Origin: Aquamicrobium zhengzhouense
GTDB taxonomy: Bacteria; Pseudomonadota; Alphaproteobacteria; Rhizobiales; Rhizobiaceae
Length of the DNA: 64,000 nucleotides
Direction of reading: 5' to 3'
NCBI RefSeq assembly: GCF_016124105.1
Contig: NZ_JADGMQ010000004.1
Span: 1 to 64,000 of the forward strand
The notes beneath the pieces were generated by a model. It was given only the letters and a program-made list of their open reading frames with translations, did not search any database and was not told the origin of the DNA. How positions within the stretch are numbered: the first letter of the stretch is position 1; every line of letters begins with the position of its first letter. Below, in pieces: positions 131 through 54,197 of this stretch. A program made the translations under genes and the position numbers.

Positions 131-547
131 CTATGTCGGCTTTTCGCTCAGCATTCGTGCAGCGAACATGCCAAGGATCATGGCAGGAACGAAGGCGAGC
201 GTGCCTGGGGCGCCTAAGCCCAACGCCGCGATAGCAGGACCAGGGCAAAAACCACCGAGCCCCCAGCCAACGCCAAAGATGGCTGGGCCAACGAGGATAC
301 GGATATCGATGTCTTGTCGGGTTGGGAGATGGAACGCTCCACCCGCAAGCGGCCGCTCACGGCGCAGTACAAGACGATAGCCGATGAAGGCGACGATCAC
401 CGCACCGCCCATGACGAAGGCAAGCGATGGATCCCAGGTTCCGAACAGATCGAGAAAGTTCAAGACCTTGGCCGGGTCCGCCATGCCGGAGACGACCAGG
501 CCACCGCCAAACAGAAGACCCAACGCGAGATTGACGAGGAAAGACAC
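131..547 (-). CDS. YeeE/YedE-family half-transporter, DUF6691 type
   Basis: This is a 138-residue inner-membrane protein with about four hydrophobic segments. The conserved loop GFCPGPA (around residue 100) is the cysteine-containing signature of the YeeE/YedE (sulfur transport) family; Cys is the likely contact for thiosulfate or sulfane sulfur. It is the second of two half-length copies, four bases downstream of the first, and the pair together matches one full-length YeeE. In related operons these pairs (PmpA/PmpB-like) sit with a BigR-type repressor and a persulfide dioxygenase. The role is probably movement of a small sulfur species across the membrane; direction and substrate are not shown by the sequence. 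Confidence 0.85.
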   Translation of the reverse strand: MSFLVNLALGLLFGGGLVVSGMADPAKVLNFLDLFGTWDPSLAFVMGGAVIVAFIGYRLVLRRERPLAGGAFHLPTRQDIDIRILVGPAIFGVGWGLGGFCPGPAIAALGLGAPGTLAFVPAMILGMFAARMLSEKPT

Positions 548-34569: not shown

Positions 34570-35793
34570 TCAGCCGCCAGCACCTTGTCGAGCCTGAGCA
34601 AAATACCCGATCGCCGCCGCGATACCGCTCGCTGCTTTTGCGCGCCACTCAGGATCCCTCATCAACGCCTCGTCTTGCGCATTGGAGAGATAACCCAGCT
34701 CCAGAAGGACAGACGGAACATCCGGCGCGCGAAGGACCCGGAAGCCGGCGAAGCGATGTGGATTGGTCTGGATCATCGAGATCGCCGACGAAAGCTCTTC
34801 AACAAGCGAACGAGCAAAGCGGATCGAAAAGCCCTGCGTCTCGCGCCGGATCAGATCAGCCAGGATGTCAGCTACCTCCTGATGCTCTTCCTCAACGACC
34901 ACCCCTGCAATTTCGTCTGCGAGGTTTTCGCGGATAGCCTTGGCCGCTGCCTCCGGGTCGGAGGCCTTGTCGGAAACGGTGTAGACCGTCGCACCGCGCA
35001 CAGATTTCTGACGAATGGAATCTGCGTGGATCGAAATGAAGAGATCAGCCTCGTGCTGACGTGCAATCTTCACCCGTTCATCGAGCCGCAAAAAGAGGTC
35101 GCGGTCTCTGGTGAGAAACACATCGAGACCACCAACTTCTCCCAGCTTCTTTTTAAGCTCCAGCGAGAAGGCGAGCGTGATGGTCTTTTCAACCGTTCCG
35201 CTAACGCCAGCGGCACCCGTATCAATGCCGCCATGCCCTGGATCTATCACAACGCGGAATGGCCGGGTCTGCCGTTCCACCTGCTTATGCAAGCGATCGC
35301 TTTTGGCAGCGACGGTGGCACCGGTGATTTCGATCTGCTCCGCCATTGCTGACTGAAAGGCCTCTTCGGAGGCTGCTCCAATGTCAGCGACCATTCGGAA
35401 GCCCGGCTCGGTCTCATTCTTGAGGATTTCGAACTTTTCGACCGCGAACGGACCATCGAAGGACAGGATCAGCCGCGAGTGCCCCGGACCTGCATTGCCG
35501 TAAAACACCGCAGTTACCATGCTGCGCGGCGAAAGATCTTCGCCCTCAAACCGGAATTCCGCTTCCGGCATCTCGATCGCCAGCCTGTGCGGGTCGCGCA
35601 AAAGGAACCAGCGAAGATCTGGCTCCTTGTCAAAATGCACAACCAACCGCATGCGCGCGGCATCTCCAGCCATCTTGTAGCTGTGCGCAACCAGCGCATC
35701 GGATGCTGCGGCAGCCTGAGCAAGACCGATTACTGCCACGATGGCCGCAATCAGCCGCATGAGCACGCGAGAGATGGAGACAGCCTGCGGCAT
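34570..35793 (-). CDS. amiC: N-acetylmuramoyl-L-alanine amidase, AMIN + Amidase_3
   Basis: A 407-residue exported amidase. A signal peptide (about 1-31: VLMRLIAAIVAVIGLAQAAAA) is followed by an AMIN domain (about 35-140), which localises the enzyme to septal peptidoglycan, and by the Amidase_3 domain from VVIDPGHGGIDTGAAG. Zinc ligands are in PGHGG and SIHADS; the catalytic Glu is in LLELGYLSN. It cleaves the bond between MurNAc and L-Ala. The ATG at 35793 has AGGG upstream; the frame extends to 35874, but that region looks like promoter sequence. Confidence 0.92.
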   Translation of the reverse strand: MPQAVSISRVLMRLIAAIVAVIGLAQAAAASDALVAHSYKMAGDAARMRLVVHFDKEPDLRWFLLRDPHRLAIEMPEAEFRFEGEDLSPRSMVTAVFYGNAGPGHSRLILSFDGPFAVEKFEILKNETEPGFRMVADIGAASEEAFQSAMAEQIEITGATVAAKSDRLHKQVERQTRPFRVVIDPGHGGIDTGAAGVSGTVEKTITLAFSLELKKKLGEVGGLDVFLTRDRDLFLRLDERVKIARQHEADLFISIHADSIRQKSVRGATVYTVSDKASDPEAAAKAIRENLADEIAGVVVEEEHQEVADILADLIRRETQGFSIRFARSLVEELSSAISMIQTNPHRFAGFRVLRAPDVPSVLLELGYLSNAQDEALMRDPEWRAKAASGIAAAIGYFAQARQGAGG

Positions 35794-36407
35794 GGCACCC
35801 TGTACGATATTAAGCGGAACGCCCGAGTTAATGAGTGGTAATGGCCTATGGTTAAGCAAAACTTTAAGCACCATATGACCTGCGTCCCCAACTTTCCGTC
35901 GGCATGCCGCTGCCGAATGTGGGTTGCCATGATCTTCAGCAAATCATAAAAGCAAGATCGGATCACCGCAATGTCGTGATCGTTCGAGCCTGCCGCGTAT
36001 CATTGCTTTGGCAGCAACGGTGCCCCCGCGGAGAAAGGCACGGCGAAACAGACATGGTGTTTCCAAGGAATTTTCTTGCAGGCGGCACCCGCGAGTTCGG
36101 GTCCCCTGGCGTGAGGAAAGACGGCCGGGAGCATCCCAGCCGGCTCTGTACGAGCAAAAATCGGCGGGTCCGTTTGAAAACGGACCTTAGTTTAAAAATG
36201 GTATCGCATGTAGCGCAATGAACGTTAGCCAGACCCTGCCCCGGACCGAAGGAAACCGCGCCGTAATGGCCGCGGTCGGTATGGCAGGTCGGCTTCTGCG
36301 AATGCGTGCGACCCCTCAATATTCCGGCGTGCAGGCAAGAACAGCGCATTCATTCCGCGCGATCCTGCGGTTGCGTCCGTCTGCCCTCGCCGGGGAGACA
36401 AATCATA
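35794..36407 (+). other. divergent control region and long structured leader of rne
   Basis: About 610 bases without a gene. The part near the amidase contains several TTAA half-sites (35827-35868). The rne side holds hairpins such as GGTCCGT-TTGAAA-ACGGACC (36167-36186) and GGCCGG...CCGGCT (36123-36145). RNase E genes often have long leaders through which RNase E cuts its own message, and this region may serve that role. Confidence 0.45.
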
Positions 36408-39400
36408 ATGCCCAACAAAATGCTCATCGATGCCTCCCACCCGGAGGAGACGCGGGTAGTCGTTGTTCGCGGTAACCGCATCGAAGAATTTGACTTCGAG
36501 TCTGAGAATAAAAAGCAGCTTAAGGGTAACATCTACCTCGCCCGTGTAACCCGGGTCGAACCGTCACTTCAGGCCGCCTTCGTGGAATATGGAGGCAATC
36601 GGCACGGCTTCCTCGCATTCTCAGAAATCCACCCGGACTATTACCAGATCCCCGTTGCTGATCGGCAGGCACTGCTGCGCGCAGAGGCGGAAGACGCTGA
36701 AGCCGATGAAGATGAAGATGACGGCGAGGAGCGCAACGGTCGCCATCGCCGCCGTCGGCGTGGCCGCAGCCGCGATCGCAATGGTGAAACTGCTCACCCT
36801 GATGGCGAAAGCGAGAACGTTTCTGACGACGATGGCGCTCACGACGAAACCGCTGCCAGCGAAGATGCCGGCAGCGATGACGCGGACAGCAATGACGCAG
36901 GCGTAACGGTCATTGCAGAGACGGCGGAAGCCGATGTCATCTCGGAAGCTGCACCCGAAACAATTGAAACCGAAGCCGCTCAGGCCGACGAAGATCCAAG
37001 CGTCGATACTTCGCCAGTAGAATCGGAAGCTGCCTCTGATGAGCCTGCTGCGTCTGACGACGAGCAGCAGCAGGATGACGAGTCGGGTGATGACAGCCAC
37101 GACGACGACAGCCACGACAATGGCGATGGCGCCGATGAAGTCGTTTCGGTAGGTGCGGAAGACGCTTTCGAGGAAGTGCACGAAGAGCGCCGCCGCCCGT
37201 CGCGCCGCCAGTACAAGATCCAGGAAGTCATCAAGCGCCGCCAGATCCTTTTGGTCCAGGTCGTCAAGGAAGAGCGCGGCAACAAGGGCGCGGCTCTGAC
37301 GACCTACCTGTCGCTAGCCGGCCGCTATTCCGTCTTGATGCCGAACACGGCTCGCGGTGGCGGAATTTCCCGCAAGATCACGAATGCCCAGGATCGCAAG
37401 CGCCTCAAGGATATCGTCAAGGAGCTTGAAGTCCCGCAGGGCATGGGCGTGATCCTGCGTACCGCTGGCGAAAGCCGCACCAAGACCGAGATCAAGCGCG
37501 ACTACGAATATCTGATGCGCCTGTGGGACAACGTCCGTGAACTGACATTGAAGTCCACCGCGCCTGCCCTCGTCTATGAAGAGGGCTCGCTCATCAAGCG
37601 GTCGGTTCGCGACCTGTATAACAAGGACATCAACGAGATCCTGGTTGCTGGCGAAGCGGGCTACCGCGAGGCGAAGGATTTCATGCGCATGTTGATGCCG
37701 AGCCACGCAAAGGTGGTGCAGCCATATCGGGACACCTTACCAATCTTTGCTCGCAACGGCATCGAGGCACAGCTGGACAAGATGGTTCAGCCGCAGGTGA
37801 CCCTGAAGTCCGGCGGCTACATCATCCTTAACCAGACCGAAGCCCTCGTGGCGATCGACGTTAACTCCGGTCGGTCGACGAAGGAACACTCGATCGAAGA
37901 CACCGCGCTTCAGACCAATCTGGAAGCAGCGGAAGAAGTCGCGCGCCAACTGCGCCTTCGCGACCTTGCCGGCCTCATCGTCATTGACTTCATCGACATG
38001 GAGGAGAGCCGCAACAATCGTGCGGTCGAGAAGCGCCTCAAGGAATGCCTGAAGAACGACCGTGCCCGCATTCAGGTCGGTCGCATCTCGCATTTCGGCC
38101 TGCTGGAAATGTCGCGCCAGCGCATTCGCGCTTCGGTCCTTGAGTCGACGATGCAGATCTGCCCGCATTGCGGCGGTGCGGGCCATGTCCGTTCGGAATC
38201 TTCGGTCGGCCTCATGGTTATCCGGGCAATCGAGGACTTCCTGCTGAAGGATTCGCGCTGCCACATCACCGTTCGCACGCCAACCGCGACGGCCCTCTAC
38301 ATCCTGAATCACAAGCGTTCGACGATTACAGATCTCGAGAACCGCTTCGGCCTCTCGATCACGATCGAAGCGGATGAATCAGTTCGCTCGCAGCACTATG
38401 CGATCATGAAGGGCGCTGCCGCCGAACGCCCCGAGGGCTTCGTCCCGATCATGCCGGCCCTCAACTATGAGGAATACCCGGAAGACGACATCATCGATTT
38501 CGAAATCGAGGAAGAGGACGAGGAAGAAACCACCACTGAGGTTGCTGCCGCTCCGGCGCAGGAAGAGAATGGTGGTCAGCAAAAGCGCAAGCGTCGCCGC
38601 CGCCGTCGCGGTGGTCGCGATCGTGAAAACGGTGATTCGCCAAGATCCGGCGCATCGGACGCGTCTGATGACAGCAATGATGATGCTGCCTCCGATGAGG
38701 CTTCGGCTGATGGCGAAGGGGAAGCCGCTGCGGCCTCCGAAAATGGTGCAGAAGACGGATCCGAGCCAAAGAAGCGCCGTCGTGGCAAGCGTGGCGGACG
38801 CCGCAATCGCCGCGAAGACGAAGAAGCCGCTGCAGCCTCGACCGAGGATGAAGCAGCCGAGGCAGGAGAAGCGACTGCTGAAACTTCGGCCAGCGAAGAC
38901 GACGCTCAGGTTGCTGACAAAGTCGTCCAGCTGGAAGAACCCTCGGCTCCAGCCTTCGAGGTGGAGACACCCGTTAACGCCACTGATGCCCCGGTAGTGG
39001 ACGCAGACGTCGCAGCTATGGAAACTGTCGAAGGTGCGACCGAAGAGACGGCACCCGAGGCGGCATCTTCCGAGGAGACTGCTCCTGTAGCGGAAGAAGC
39101 ACCAAAGAAGCGGACGACGCGACGCCGGACCAAGAAGGTTGAGCCCGCCGCAGCTGAGGTAAGCGAGGCCGTTGCGGACCTTGCTGCCCCCGCCGAACCT
39201 TCCGAAGTGGTTGCTGAAAAGCCGAAGCCGCGCCGGACCACGCGCCGCAAGAAGGTCACCGAAGAGGCAGCTGCAGATGCGCCCGAGGCTGTTGTTGCAG
39301 AAGAAGCTGTGGCTGCAGTTCCGACGGAAGCGGTGAGCGCTATTGTTGAGGCAGAGCCGGTCGCTGAAACACCTAAGGGTGAGGTAGAACCGTCACCGGC

Positions 39401-39572
39401 TACCGAGACTGAGGTCGAAGCTGCTGCAGCTGCAGACGCGACGGCGGAACCAGCAGCAGATCAGCCTGCAGCGGCACCAATCGCATCTGAACCCGTGGTT
39501 ACGTCATCGGCACCCGAGGGCGAAGAGACACAACCTCGCAAGGGTTGGTGGCAACGCCGCGGCTTCTTCTAA
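36408..39572 (+). CDS. rne: ribonuclease E
   Basis: A 1054-residue endoribonuclease, core of the degradosome. The S1 domain begins at VKGNIYLARVTRV-like residues 38-75 and is interrupted by an insert of about 165 residues (about 95-262) made of Asp/Glu/Ala/Ser with an Arg-rich patch. The catalytic domain resumes at YKIQEVIKRRQILLVQVVKEE and has ALVAIDVNSGR and LIVIDFIDM (magnesium Asp residues), and the zinc-link CPHCGGAGHV. After about 677 comes a long disordered tail with Arg-rich blocks (RKRRRRRRGGRDRE) in acidic/alanine repeats, where partner proteins and RNA bind. GGGGAG precedes the ATG. Confidence 0.96.
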   Translation: MPNKMLIDASHPEETRVVVVRGNRIEEFDFESENKKQLKGNIYLARVTRVEPSLQAAFVEYGGNRHGFLAFSEIHPDYYQIPVADRQALLRAEAEDAEADEDEDDGEERNGRHRRRRRGRSRDRNGETAHPDGESENVSDDDGAHDETAASEDAGSDDADSNDAGVTVIAETAEADVISEAAPETIETEAAQADEDPSVDTSPVESEAASDEPAASDDEQQQDDESGDDSHDDDSHDNGDGADEVVSVGAEDAFEEVHEERRRPSRRQYKIQEVIKRRQILLVQVVKEERGNKGAALTTYLSLAGRYSVLMPNTARGGGISRKITNAQDRKRLKDIVKELEVPQGMGVILRTAGESRTKTEIKRDYEYLMRLWDNVRELTLKSTAPALVYEEGSLIKRSVRDLYNKDINEILVAGEAGYREAKDFMRMLMPSHAKVVQPYRDTLPIFARNGIEAQLDKMVQPQVTLKSGGYIILNQTEALVAIDVNSGRSTKEHSIEDTALQTNLEAAEEVARQLRLRDLAGLIVIDFIDMEESRNNRAVEKRLKECLKNDRARIQVGRISHFGLLEMSRQRIRASVLESTMQICPHCGGAGHVRSESSVGLMVIRAIEDFLLKDSRCHITVRTPTATALYILNHKRSTITDLENRFGLSITIEADESVRSQHYAIMKGAAAERPEGFVPIMPALNYEEYPEDDIIDFEIEEEDEEETTTEVAAAPAQEENGGQQKRKRRRRRRGGRDRENGDSPRSGASDASDDSNDDAASDEASADGEGEAAAASENGAEDGSEPKKRRRGKRGGRRNRREDEEAAAASTEDEAAEAGEATAETSASEDDAQVADKVVQLEEPSAPAFEVETPVNATDAPVVDADVAAMETVEGATEETAPEAASSEETAPVAEEAPKKRTTRRRTKKVEPAAAEVSEAVADLAAPAEPSEVVAEKPKPRRTTRRKKVTEEAAADAPEAVVAEEAVAAVPTEAVSAIVEAEPVAETPKGEVEPSPATETEVEAAAAADATAEPAADQPAAAPIASEPVVTSSAPEGEETQPRKGWWQRRGFF

Positions 39573-51781: not shown

Positions 51782-51906
51782 CTTCTCAAATCATCCGCCG
51801 AGTATTACCCCTTTTTAACTTGCCTGCCTCTAATGTGCCGACGATCTTCTTGTGCTTTTACAAGAGATGAAGGAATTGGCATGACTGTTCCAATGCGGCG
51901 GTGCAG

Positions 51907-52494
51907 ATGAATATCGCCTCCGGCAGACCCGAACGACGCAGATTCCAGCGCGTACGCGTGAAGGTGTACGGCCGCTATATGCTCGAAGATCGCTCGGAAT
52001 ATCCCTGCCAGGTTCTGGACATGTCACCCGGCGATGTTGCCCTGCGCGCGGACAGACGCGGCGCACTTGGGGAGCGTGTCATCACATACCTTGATCACTT
52101 AGGCAGAATCGAGGGCGTCGTTACCCGCATGCTTGATGGCGGCTTCGCCATGACCATCATCGCATCCGAGCGCAAACGCGACAAACTCGCAGCCCAGCTT
52201 ACCTGGCTTGCCAATCGCCATGAACTGGATCTGCCGGAAGATCGCCGTCACGAGCGCATCTCTCCGCGAAACCCGATCACCCTGCTGGAGCTTCCCGACG
52301 GGACCCAGCACCCGTGCCGCATTATCGACCTATCGCTGTCAGGCGCTGCAATCGAGGTGAACGCACGGCCAGCTATCGGCCTCCAGGTCATGCTTGGCAA
52401 TATGCGGGGCCGCGTGGTCCGGCACTTCGCTGAAGGAATAGCAGTCGAATTCGCCATCGTGCAGCGAGAAGAGGCGCTGACCGCCGAGTTCTAG
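51907..52494 (+). CDS. tandem PilZ-domain protein
   Basis: A 195-residue protein with two PilZ domains. The second (about 112-190) is canonical for cyclic di-GMP: RRHERI (RxxxR) and DLSLSGAAI (DxSxxG). The first (about 9-95) has RRFQRVRV but its second motif is DMSPGDVAL, with Asp where Gly is expected, so it may not bind. A GTG two codons earlier is the alternative start. It follows the PAS_5 gene by 125 bases. It may be a c-di-GMP effector for motility or envelope functions. Confidence 0.92.
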   Translation: MNIASGRPERRRFQRVRVKVYGRYMLEDRSEYPCQVLDMSPGDVALRADRRGALGERVITYLDHLGRIEGVVTRMLDGGFAMTIIASERKRDKLAAQLTWLANRHELDLPEDRRHERISPRNPITLLELPDGTQHPCRIIDLSLSGAAIEVNARPAIGLQVMLGNMRGRVVRHFAEGIAVEFAIVQREEALTAEF

Positions 52495-52522
52495 TACTTC
52501 TCAATTTGCTGACGATCATTTC

Positions 52523-52555
52523 AAGGGCCCGTCCATCGCGGGCCCTTTTAATTTT
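52523..52555 (+). terminator. terminator after the PilZ gene
   Basis: AAGGGCCCG (52523-52531) pairs with CGGGCCCTT (52539-52547) around TCCATCG, followed by TTAATTTT. Confidence 0.9.
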
Positions 52556-52753
52556 GTATTTACCCTAAAGAAGCGGACCAACTGAAATGATCCGCCCTTT
52601 ACGCTATGTAAAAACATCCTTCGCGTTCAGCTTTGTAATCGTTAATGTTTATTGCCATGCCAAATGCTCAATTTGATCTAATTTGTACTACACGCTTTTG
52701 CGTGGAATAAATCTGCGTCTGCCATTGTTCTCTCGTCACAGGGGAGACGCCAA

Positions 52754-53362
52754 ATGGCGACAACAACAAAAACGCTGATCGCAGCCATGGTCATTGCCAT
52801 CGCAAGCGCCACTGCTGCCGCATCAGCACAGCCCTTCATGCCGACCGGGAACTTGTCCACGCAGCCCGTCGGACACTACGAATTTTGCAAGCGCGAGGCA
52901 CAAGAGTGCCAGCGGATTAGGGAAGCCGCACCTGTTAAGCTCAGCCGCGAGCTATGGGCGACGATCATCGAAGTCAACAACCTCGTGAATACGATGATCA
53001 CCCCTCGCACCGACTATGAGATGTGGGGCATCGAGGAACATTGGTCCTATCCGGTTCACGGGCTTGGGGACTGTGAGGACTATGTTCTTGAAAAGCGTCG
53101 TCGTTTAATCGCGGCGGGTATCCCGGAATCAAATTTGCCGATCACGGTCGTTCGTCAGCCAAATGGGGACGGCCACGCAGTTCTGACCGTGCGAACCAAT
53201 ATGGGCGACTTCATCCTCGACAATCTCGAGGCGCGCGTATTGGCCTGGCAGGAAACCGACTATCGCTATCTTAAGCGCCAATCACCCAAACATGCGGGCA
53301 TGTGGGTGGCAATTGACGACGGCCGCAACGTTCTCGTCGGCAGTGTGAGTGGACGCCGCTGA
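52754..53362 (+). CDS. transglutaminase-like cysteine peptidase (BTLCP)
   Basis: A 202-residue exported protein. The signal peptide covers about 1-26 (ending ASA). The catalytic triad of the bacterial transglutaminase-like fold is visible: Cys107 in GLGDCEDYVLEKRR, His141 in GDGHAVLTV and Asp156 in FILDNLEARV. The family is widespread in Alphaproteobacteria and related to LapG, which trims a surface adhesin under c-di-GMP control; no LapD-like gene is seen here. The ribosome site GGGGAG is strong. A small hairpin CACGC-TTTT-GCGTG lies in the leader at 52691-52704. Confidence 0.92.
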   Translation: MATTTKTLIAAMVIAIASATAAASAQPFMPTGNLSTQPVGHYEFCKREAQECQRIREAAPVKLSRELWATIIEVNNLVNTMITPRTDYEMWGIEEHWSYPVHGLGDCEDYVLEKRRRLIAAGIPESNLPITVVRQPNGDGHAVLTVRTNMGDFILDNLEARVLAWQETDYRYLKRQSPKHAGMWVAIDDGRNVLVGSVSGRR

Positions 53363-53390
53363 TCGCCTATCTCTAACACGAGGGCATGTG

Positions 53391-53503
53391 TCAGTTCGAC
53401 GAGACCATGCCTGAGAATACGGAACGCCCGGTCGAGTCCCCACCCTCCCCGTCCCCAAGACCGGGTCAGGAGCCGGCCCTTACCAGAGGGTCGGCTCTTT
53501 CCG
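53391..53503 (+). ncRNA. candidate three-hairpin small RNA with C-rich anti-SD-like loop
   Basis: Three stems in series follow the BTLCP stop. GGCATG/CATGCC spans 53393-53411. CCCGGTC/GACCGGG spans 53427-53465 and encloses a 25-base loop very rich in C, including CCACCCTCCCC. The last, GAGCCGGCCCT/AGGGTCGGCTC (53470-53497), is a strong terminator with a short T tail. This layout resembles the rhizobial sRNAs that carry anti-Shine-Dalgarno loops (the alpha-r14 type). It could also be just the 3' end of the BTLCP message. Confidence 0.35.
53470..53500 (+). terminator. terminator downstream of BTLCP gene
   Basis: An 11-base stem with one G-T pair and a short loop, then CTCTTT. It closes the BTLCP transcript and may also serve the convergent side weakly. 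Confidence 0.85.
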
Positions 53504-53513
53504 TGAGAGGAAC

Positions 53514-54197
53514 TCAGAAGCTGACGATCTTGCCTTGAGACAGCGTCACGCGCCGGTCCATGCGGGCGGCAAGCTCGTGATTGTGGGTAGCGATCAGCGC
53601 GGAAAGCCCCGACTGGCGGACAAGCGCCTCCAGCGCATCAAACACATAGGACGCTGTCGTCGGATCGAGGTTGCCCGTAGGCTCGTCGGCAAGAAGCAGA
53701 AGTGGCGCATTCGCGACTGCACGAGCGATCGCGACACGCTGCTGTTCGCCACCCGACAGCTCCGCCGGACGATGATCAGCCCTATGACCGATCTTCATAT
53801 AGTCCAACAGCTGGAGCGCGCGCTCCTTCGCCTGCTTTGGCGAGAGGCCTGCCACCATTTGCGGCATCATCACGTTTTCGAGCGCCGAGAATTCCGGCAA
53901 GAGATGATGAAACTGGTAAACGAAACCAATATCGTTGCGGCGGATGGCTGTTCGATCATCGTCCGACAGGGGGCCGCAAGGGACACCGGAGAGGATGACA
54001 TCGCCGCCATCGGCACGCTCCAGCAGGCCAGCTGTGTGTAGCAGAGTCGATTTTCCCGCGCCCGAAGGCGCGACCAGCGCGACCATCTCGCCGTGCTTCA
54101 GCGAAAAGTCTGCCTTGTCGAGGATGACCAGCTTGCGGTCACCCTCGTTGTAGCGACGATCTACTGCCTTGAGTTCCAGCAAAAGCTTGGATGCCAT
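53514..54197 (-). CDS. lolD: lipoprotein-releasing ABC transporter ATPase LolD
   Basis: A 227-residue ATPase. Walker A reads APSGAGKST, with Ala in place of the first Gly; this form is common in alphaproteobacterial LolD. The signature is [15 protein letters not shown] and Walker [15 protein letters not shown]. It powers extraction of lipoproteins from the inner membrane for transfer to LolA. Its start overlaps the lolC stop as TAATG. Confidence 0.95.

Follow-up and report, generated by a model that had tools for sequence, protein, structure and literature searches.

Directly downstream of a gene for a BTLCP cysteine protease of secreted type in Aquamicrobium zhengzhouense we identified a real, conserved structured RNA on the forward strand, for which covariation is strong, and which lies in or just after the BTLCP 3' UTR. 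The window analysed was a stretch of 64,000 nt from contig NZ_JADGMQ010000004.1, and the unit coordinates given below refer to this window. Judging from the sequence comparisons, the C-rich loop of this RNA probably binds to ribosome sites on mRNAs, possibly with that of its own message among them. The reading we prefer, and in which we have moderate confidence, is that the RNA would derive from the end of the BTLCP message and that its loop would pair with ribosome-binding sites, the site on its own message being one target.

Anatomy of the conserved unit

The conserved RNA unit spans positions 53426-53503 on the forward strand and consists of two hairpins, the first with a C-rich loop of 25 nt and the second a terminator hairpin. 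Both hairpins are located between the BTLCP stop codon (53362) and a convergent lolD-like gene. The features of the locus are as follows.

51901-52494, forward strand: PilZ-domain gene, upstream of BTLCP (Pfam)
52740-52746, forward strand: BTLCP ribosome-binding site AGGGGAG (sequence)
52754-53362, forward strand: BTLCP gene (Peptidase_C93, PF06035; Pfam 218 bits), upstream partner of the unit
53391-53425, forward strand: 5' hairpin region of an earlier annotation, judged to be outside the conserved unit and absent from the consensus structure
53426-53466, forward strand: hairpin 1, stem 53426-53433/53459-53466 with a 25-nt loop (fold, inverted repeat, covariation)
53434-53458, forward strand: C-rich loop GAGTCCCCACCCTCCCCGTCCCCAA, which contains ACCCTCCCCGTCCCC, with the CTCCCCGT core at 53445-53452
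53468-53499, forward strand: hairpin 2, terminator-like, stem 53468-53481/53486-53499 (fold, covariation)
53514-54197, reverse strand: convergent lolD-like ABC ATPase gene (Pfam ABC_tran; LolD was the best NCBIfam model, with a score under the cut-off)

Folding of the 82-nt segment 53422-53503 gave -39.8 kcal/mol (z -4.06) and none of 200 shuffled sequences folded as well, while the longer 113-nt segment 53391-53503 gave a fold of -44 (z -2.71) which was equalled by 3 of 200 shuffles. Among ten sequences (the window and nine relatives) conservation was 0.95-1.00 at 53430-53479, 0.58-0.75 over the final 70 nt of the BTLCP gene and 0.49-0.55 at 53390-53419. The first-pass annotation of this DNA had described three hairpins in series, the middle one with a long C-rich loop. 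The C-rich hairpin was borne out as hairpin 1, and only two conserved hairpins were found. The 5' hairpin (53398-53438 in the 113-nt minimum-energy fold) competes with hairpin 1, which is missing from that minimum-energy fold and is formed in its centroid. The 5' hairpin was rejected as a part of the unit on account of its low conservation and its absence from the consensus structure.

A terminator had also been proposed at the end of the structure. The hairpin itself is strong, but in the window it is followed by a T run of TTT only (53498-53500) and then CCG, which makes it a weak terminator here, and a terminator pattern scan of the window locus did not call hairpin 2. The T run reached at least four residues in 87 of 122 aligned copies and at least three in 104 of the 122. 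Two unusual arrangements were seen in other genomes: tandem copies of the unit (164-247 and 256-340, reverse strand of locus L115) follow one BTLCP gene in genome G050, and an element in genome G015 (locus L086, 1501-1621, reverse strand) holds an internal duplication that begins at the end of loop 1 and reaches as far as the start of the terminator hairpin.

Over 109 loops the letters were 59% C and 10% G. This composition would suit an account in which the partner of the loop is a protein (Hfq, a DUF1127 protein of the CcaF1 type, or Rho) and not a message, and in Rhodobacter CcaF1 takes part in the maturation of the CcsR RNAs according to the available part of the source (PMC10253847). The match between loop and BTLCP leader reported below is not predicted by protein binding, which we regard as very unlikely.

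Covariation and strand

Covariation was assessed on two alignments. In a MAFFT alignment which was not fitted to any covariance model, double changes were observed in 15 of the 19 base pairs (6 of 8 in hairpin 1) and the covariation score was 0.362 compared with 0.216 in shuffles, none of 500 shuffles being as high. The second was a model-aligned set of 100 rows (96 distinct, including one antisense side match), an alignment that leans to the model; here 18 of 19 pairs had double changes (8/8 in hairpin 1 and 10/11 in hairpin 2), the score was 0.508 against 0.218, and 96.1% of cells were paired (96.5% for helix 2 alone). When the partner was shifted by one column pairing fell to about 50%. Covariation, the absence of which the first-pass annotation had itself named as evidence against its proposal, is present in both alignments.

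There were 123 G-U cells compared with 21 A-C cells, which indicates that the forward strand is the RNA. Two side matches (L168:1477 and L233:220) are present in the model-aligned sets and were omitted from the loop, G-U and T-run counts. The loop in the window has four C runs, equivalent to four G runs on the reverse strand, and the signal might thus belong to that strand as a G-quadruplex in the 3' end of lolD or in the DNA. The four runs are kept in only 42 of 109 loops, the G-U excess points to the forward strand, and only 8 of 53 loci have a lolD-like gene after the unit, each of them from the window's own genus. These counts led us to reject an opposite-strand signal as a general account, for which we hold the chance to be extremely small; it could hold in the window's genus. 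The count of 8 in 53 loci likewise led us to reject lolD as a functional partner.

Distribution and linkage to BTLCP

A DNA search of 60 relatives returned 18 rows with E <1e-4 in 17 genomes, own genome included, and by coordinates all 18 sit just downstream of BTLCP matches. A new covariance model was made from 22 sequences, all taken just after BTLCP, with a match threshold of E 3e-4 or better. The order sample comprised 199 genomes, of which 99, the own genome included, had model matches and 177 had BTLCP; about half of the sample had no unit match at the threshold. From a class sample of 190 genomes three matched, namely the own genome, a second member of the order and a genome from elsewhere in the class. 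The last is thus the only match among 187 class genomes outside the order (the 190 less the own genome and two listed as of the same order), with E 3e-4 and no BTLCP in the stretch examined (G237).

A BTLCP stop codon on the same strand lies 1-314 nt ahead of the start of 95 of the 103 model matches, with a median gap of 22 nt and a gap of 30 nt or less in 63 of the 95. No member of such an RNA class had been known to the earlier annotator in this position, which now proves to be the rule. The same annotation had left two alternatives, an RNA transcribed alone or a structured 3' end of the protease message. The second fits the anatomy better because the model starts a median of only 22 nt after the BTLCP stop, but four genomes described below have the RNA without an adjacent BTLCP.

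As an independent check of the linkage, the exact 20-mer of the loop was used as a query that holds no gene. It was found in at least 120 public stretches and, among the matches listed, BTLCP lay within 500 nt upstream on the same strand in 113 of 120. Four of the listed exceptions had no BTLCP and had a PilZ gene in the stretch (L267, L333, L349 and L351), two had no BTLCP in the 411 and 1006 nt examined upstream (L296 and L316), and one was from Streptomyces (L309). Holders of the exact loop include Mesorhizobium, Aminobacter, Aquamicrobium, Nitratireductor, Rhodobium, Pseudolabrys, Prosthecomicrobium and Salinarimonas; Mesorhizobium, like Pinisolibacter, belongs to the order Hyphomicrobiales. 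The genome of the window has a second BTLCP gene (L050, G000:C16:37564-38527), which has a different leader and no model match near it.

Units without an adjacent BTLCP gene

Four genomes of a single family (G062, G172, G200 and G223) carry the unit after a PilZ homologue, 59-62% identical to the PilZ gene of the window, with no BTLCP in the stretch examined. The exact loop 20-mer was kept in three of these loci and had diverged in G223. The four genomes carry 1, 1, 3 and 3 BTLCP-family genes elsewhere, respectively, and therefore only the local copy is missing. Since the unit occurs in them with no BTLCP alongside, the RNA can stand apart from the BTLCP message, and it may pair in trans with the BTLCP-family genes elsewhere.

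These loci, together with gaps of up to 314 nt in some genomes, would be accommodated by an independent trans-acting sRNA with its own promoter at the end of BTLCP or in the gap, for which BTLCP would be a mere neighbour and other messages the targets. We consider such an RNA unlikely, though it carries some weight. The tie to BTLCP is order-wide, and the gap, with its median of 22 nt and 63 of 95 values at or below 30 nt, leaves little room for a promoter. A simple sigma-70-like promoter scan of 52450-53600 found no site; other promoter types, or promoters within the ORF, are possible. Upstream of the BTLCP leader we noted TTTTGCG-N3-AATAAA (52696-52711, forward strand), a possible promoter of the message, and by eye the pattern TTTGCR-N3-AATAAA is common to 9 of 10 close relatives at this place.

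Similar units, with a C-rich-loop hairpin and a terminator, were seen after other genes in relatives (L106-L114 and L229). Judged by eye from their translations, these genes are FlgH-like, L,D-transpeptidase-like, GlpD-like, GlpK-like, small heat-shock-like and outer-membrane-protein-like. One of the units (L107) is a weak match to CcsR1, at 28.7 bits compared with a cut-off of 65.3. There may be a wider class of C-rich-loop message ends in relatives.

Possible pairing of the loop with ribosome-binding sites

In the window, GGGGAG (52741-52746) in the BTLCP ribosome-binding site can form 6 bp with CTCCCC (53445-53450) of the loop. GGGGAG occurred in 20 of 21 BTLCP leaders marked as having the unit and ACGGGGAG in 11 of the 21; the latter is the exact complement, over 8 bp, of the loop core CUCCCCGU, which was present in 40 of 109 loops. 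Other families differ on both sides and nevertheless match (leader/loop): GGACGGGAG/CUCCCGUCC, CGGGAGUUGG/CCAACUCCCG and GGGGAGGG/CCCUCCCC, and further GGGAGGGU/ACCCUCCC, ACAGGGA/UCCCUGU and AGGGGGA/UCCCCCU. In this list of motifs by lineage one locus (L097) was replaced and five others were added by hand. The earlier suggestion that a C-rich loop could pair with purine-rich ribosome sites is supported.

The match was tested on 109 leader-loop pairs from 64 genera, scored by the length of the perfect run and also by energy. These are 109 of 111 pairs, L222 (no leader) and L228 (N in the loop) being omitted and the loop of L086 cut to its first part; matches known only from short loci are outside this set. 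Start codons for the leaders were chosen by program, and a few that are clearly wrong (e.g., L195, L065 and L227) were kept. Over all pairs the mean run was 6.06 for own and 5.65 for permuted partners, and none of 20000 permutations was as good. With one pair per genus the runs were 5.94-6.03 compared with 5.54-5.62 for swapped partners, equalled in 0 to 19 of 20000 permutations (6 to 60 by energy), and with one pair per family in three draws they were 5.70-5.95 compared with 5.39-5.46, equalled in 43 to 884 of 20000 (50 to 856 by energy). Loops with shuffled letters reached 5.01 against 6.00 for own loops, none of 1000 shuffles being as good, and the terminator loop, used as a control in the leader pairing test, gave no signal.

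Shuffles within families gave p 0.02 by run length and p 0.14 by energy. Within a single genus (g65) p was 0.03 and 0.04 using 11 of 13 genomes; one was omitted as no start codon was found (G426) and another as its leader and loop are the same as those of G428 (G427). When partners were swapped with the three nearest other genera, own pairs were not significantly better (32 of 64, p 0.13). The leader-loop signal weakens once ancestry is controlled, and the nearest-genus swap cannot separate it from ancestry.

Within the window the 6-nt BTLCP run is within chance, being reached by 467 of 2000 shuffled loops, and in a ranking of 49 genes by their energy of pairing with the loop BTLCP came 14th. 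For the leaders of the 48 other genes in the window the loop did no better than shuffled loops (run 4.44 vs 4.38), and on this result a broad anti-Shine-Dalgarno action on all genes was rejected. As a weak lead, a perfect run of 9 nt was noted in the leader of an N-acetylmuramoyl-L-alanine amidase-like gene (34570-35874, reverse strand), and the divergent RNase E gene (36408-39572, forward strand) had a perfect run of 7 nt in its leader; both are within chance, a run of at least 9 being found in 50 of 500 shuffles. A link of the loop to RNase E would be of interest. The pattern CGGGGAG-N3-12-ATG was found 66 times in the own genome compared with 20 for the reversed pattern, an excess that is uninformative because any word resembling a ribosome site would be enriched.

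The chance-level match in the window, together with the position at the 3' end and the terminator that follows, is what would be expected of a plain structured message end, in which hairpin 1 protects the BTLCP 3' end or aids termination and the loop has no partner. Mere protection, however, requires no conservation of the loop, and in close relatives loop and stems are equally well conserved. Shuffled loops match the BTLCP leader less well than the real loops do across genera, and the unit is also found beside PilZ with no BTLCP, so that we judge a plain message end to be quite unlikely. Taking the cross-genus signal together with the limits set by ancestry and by the window, we therefore regard pairing of the loop with the BTLCP leader as the best single hypothesis, although unproven.

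Proposed function and significance

On our preferred reading, of a message-end RNA that pairs with ribosome-binding sites, transcription would start at the BTLCP promoter and the transcript would end at the hairpin 2 terminator. The RNA might be used in place or, after cleavage, as a small RNA of roughly 80-90 nt. Hairpin 1 would hold the long C-rich loop open for base pairing, and by covering ribosome-binding sites the loop would block translation. The BTLCP ribosome site, in its commonest form ACGGGGAG against CUCCCCGU, would be among the targets, which would make for negative feedback, and further messages could be targeted as well. At the four loci that have no BTLCP alongside, feedback could act only in trans on BTLCP-family genes elsewhere, or not at all.

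A wider evolutionary reading is possible but doubtful. The RNA may have arisen as a protease-message tail in an ancestor of the Hyphomicrobiales and kept two roles, one in self-silencing, with co-change of loop and leader, and the other in trans. It would have outlived the adjacent protease gene in the Pinisolibacter and Siculibacillus lineage and become a free-standing sRNA there. We lowered our estimate for this two-role reading slightly because the four genomes keep BTLCP-family genes elsewhere.

If the preferred reading is true, the unit would represent an RNA family that is deeply conserved in the rhizobium order and absent from Rfam, with a concrete target hypothesis and a tie to a single gene family across dozens of genera (64 in the leader-loop set). 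It would also link alphaproteobacterial RNAs with C-rich loops to message 3' ends and to feedback. Lineages that have the RNA and no adjacent protease gene would offer a natural experiment in the passage from message tail to free sRNA, and the unit would provide a handle on the control of BTLCP proteases.

Comparison with known systems

The first-pass annotation had likened the structure to the alpha-r14-type RNAs and had proposed a covariance-model search with the Rfam families, counting the lack of a hit against its proposal. At gathering score, Rfam matched only tRNA and ar9, which we take to be SmelC289, in the whole window, and no family in 20 related loci. With the limit set at E 10, the locus itself (53300-53600) gave four matches, all at chance level, and neither ar14 nor CcsR1 (RF02791) was among them. 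The alpha-r14 model works in the own genome, where it found six matches elsewhere, three of them over the cut-off by covariance model:

G000:C7:91113-91230: alpha-r14 RNA
G000:C20:249718-249834: alpha-r14 RNA
G000:C12:179992-180105: alpha-r14 RNA

The motif CCUCCUCCC was present in none of 109 hairpin-1 loops. With no ar14 match, no such motif and two conserved hairpins where three had been assumed, membership of alpha-r14 was rejected. An alpha-r14 RNA would also be transcribed by itself from a conserved sigma-70 promoter, and the simple scan described above found no sigma-70-like site at the locus. In the available parts of the sources, alpha-r14, SmelA075 and SmelA099 are described as having a CCUCCUCCC-type anti-Shine-Dalgarno motif in every loop, with three hairpins in alpha-r14 and SmelA075 and four in SmelA099, and several copies per genome (PMC7143759, PMC3927594). 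The alpha-r14/NfeR1/cuckoo RNAs (RF02344 ar14; SmelA075, SmelA099) resemble the unit in being alphaproteobacterial and in combining variable stems with C-rich loops that suit ribosome sites. The unit, in contrast, has one C-rich loop and a terminator and is tied to BTLCP.

The CcsR1-4 RNAs of Rhodobacter are cut by RNase E from the 3' part of the ccaF1 protein transcript, according to the part of the source available (PMC10253847), and CcsR1 belongs to RNAs with the CCUCCUCCC motif in its Rfam description. Their partner gene is a DUF1127 gene, whereas that of the unit is BTLCP, and their motif is one the unit lacks.

The layout of a 3'-UTR-derived sRNA is present in the unit, which lies directly downstream of an ORF on the same strand (95/103) and has a terminator (T run of at least 3 in 104/122, and of only 3 in the window). 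For a self-complementary 3'-UTR motif of the icaR or OppZ type, the order-wide statistics are positive, the nearest-genus swap does not separate them from ancestry, and the 6-nt match in the window is within chance. In icaR mRNA a UCCCCUG motif of the 3' UTR reportedly pairs with the Shine-Dalgarno site of its own message, and this motif is said to sit in a long 3' UTR and not in a conserved hairpin-plus-terminator unit. For OppZ and CarZ, cleavage and repression have reportedly been shown. As far as the available parts of the sources go, icaR is a self-pairing 3' UTR of Staphylococcus aureus (PMC3868564), a different phylum from the hosts of the unit, and OppZ and CarZ are 3'-UTR-derived sRNAs of Vibrio cholerae which repress their own message (PMC7398697). 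The latter differ from the unit in sequence and organism, and in the unit cleavage and repression are only inferred.

SmelC671/sm84 of Sinorhizobium meliloti has a terminator together with the motif CUCCCUGU, which differs from CUCCCCGU by one letter, and its relatives are spread over several families of the order (PMC3927594, in the part available). It is placed between SMc03988 and SMc03989, where a conserved sigma-70 promoter is predicted for it (PMC2573895, likewise in part). Its motif is described as single-stranded between hairpins, whereas that of the unit is in a hairpin loop; SmelC671/sm84 may still be identical with the unit. The unannotated sRNA candidates MH_s11, MH_s16 and MH_s22 of Mesorhizobium huakuii, which the available part of the source places between convergent genes (PMC5596092), may also be the unit RNA; mapping the unit by way of the RNase P position in two complete Mesorhizobium genomes singled out none of the three. 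In the parts covered of the literature on such RNAs, their motifs, BTLCP and the mechanisms, chiefly outside subscription journals, no paper names an RNA next to BTLCP, and in view of SmelC671/sm84 and the M. huakuii candidates the transcript may already have been listed without a name. Set beside these systems, the unit falls within no Rfam family and appears to be a C-rich-loop regulatory RNA that is fixed to the end of a protease message.
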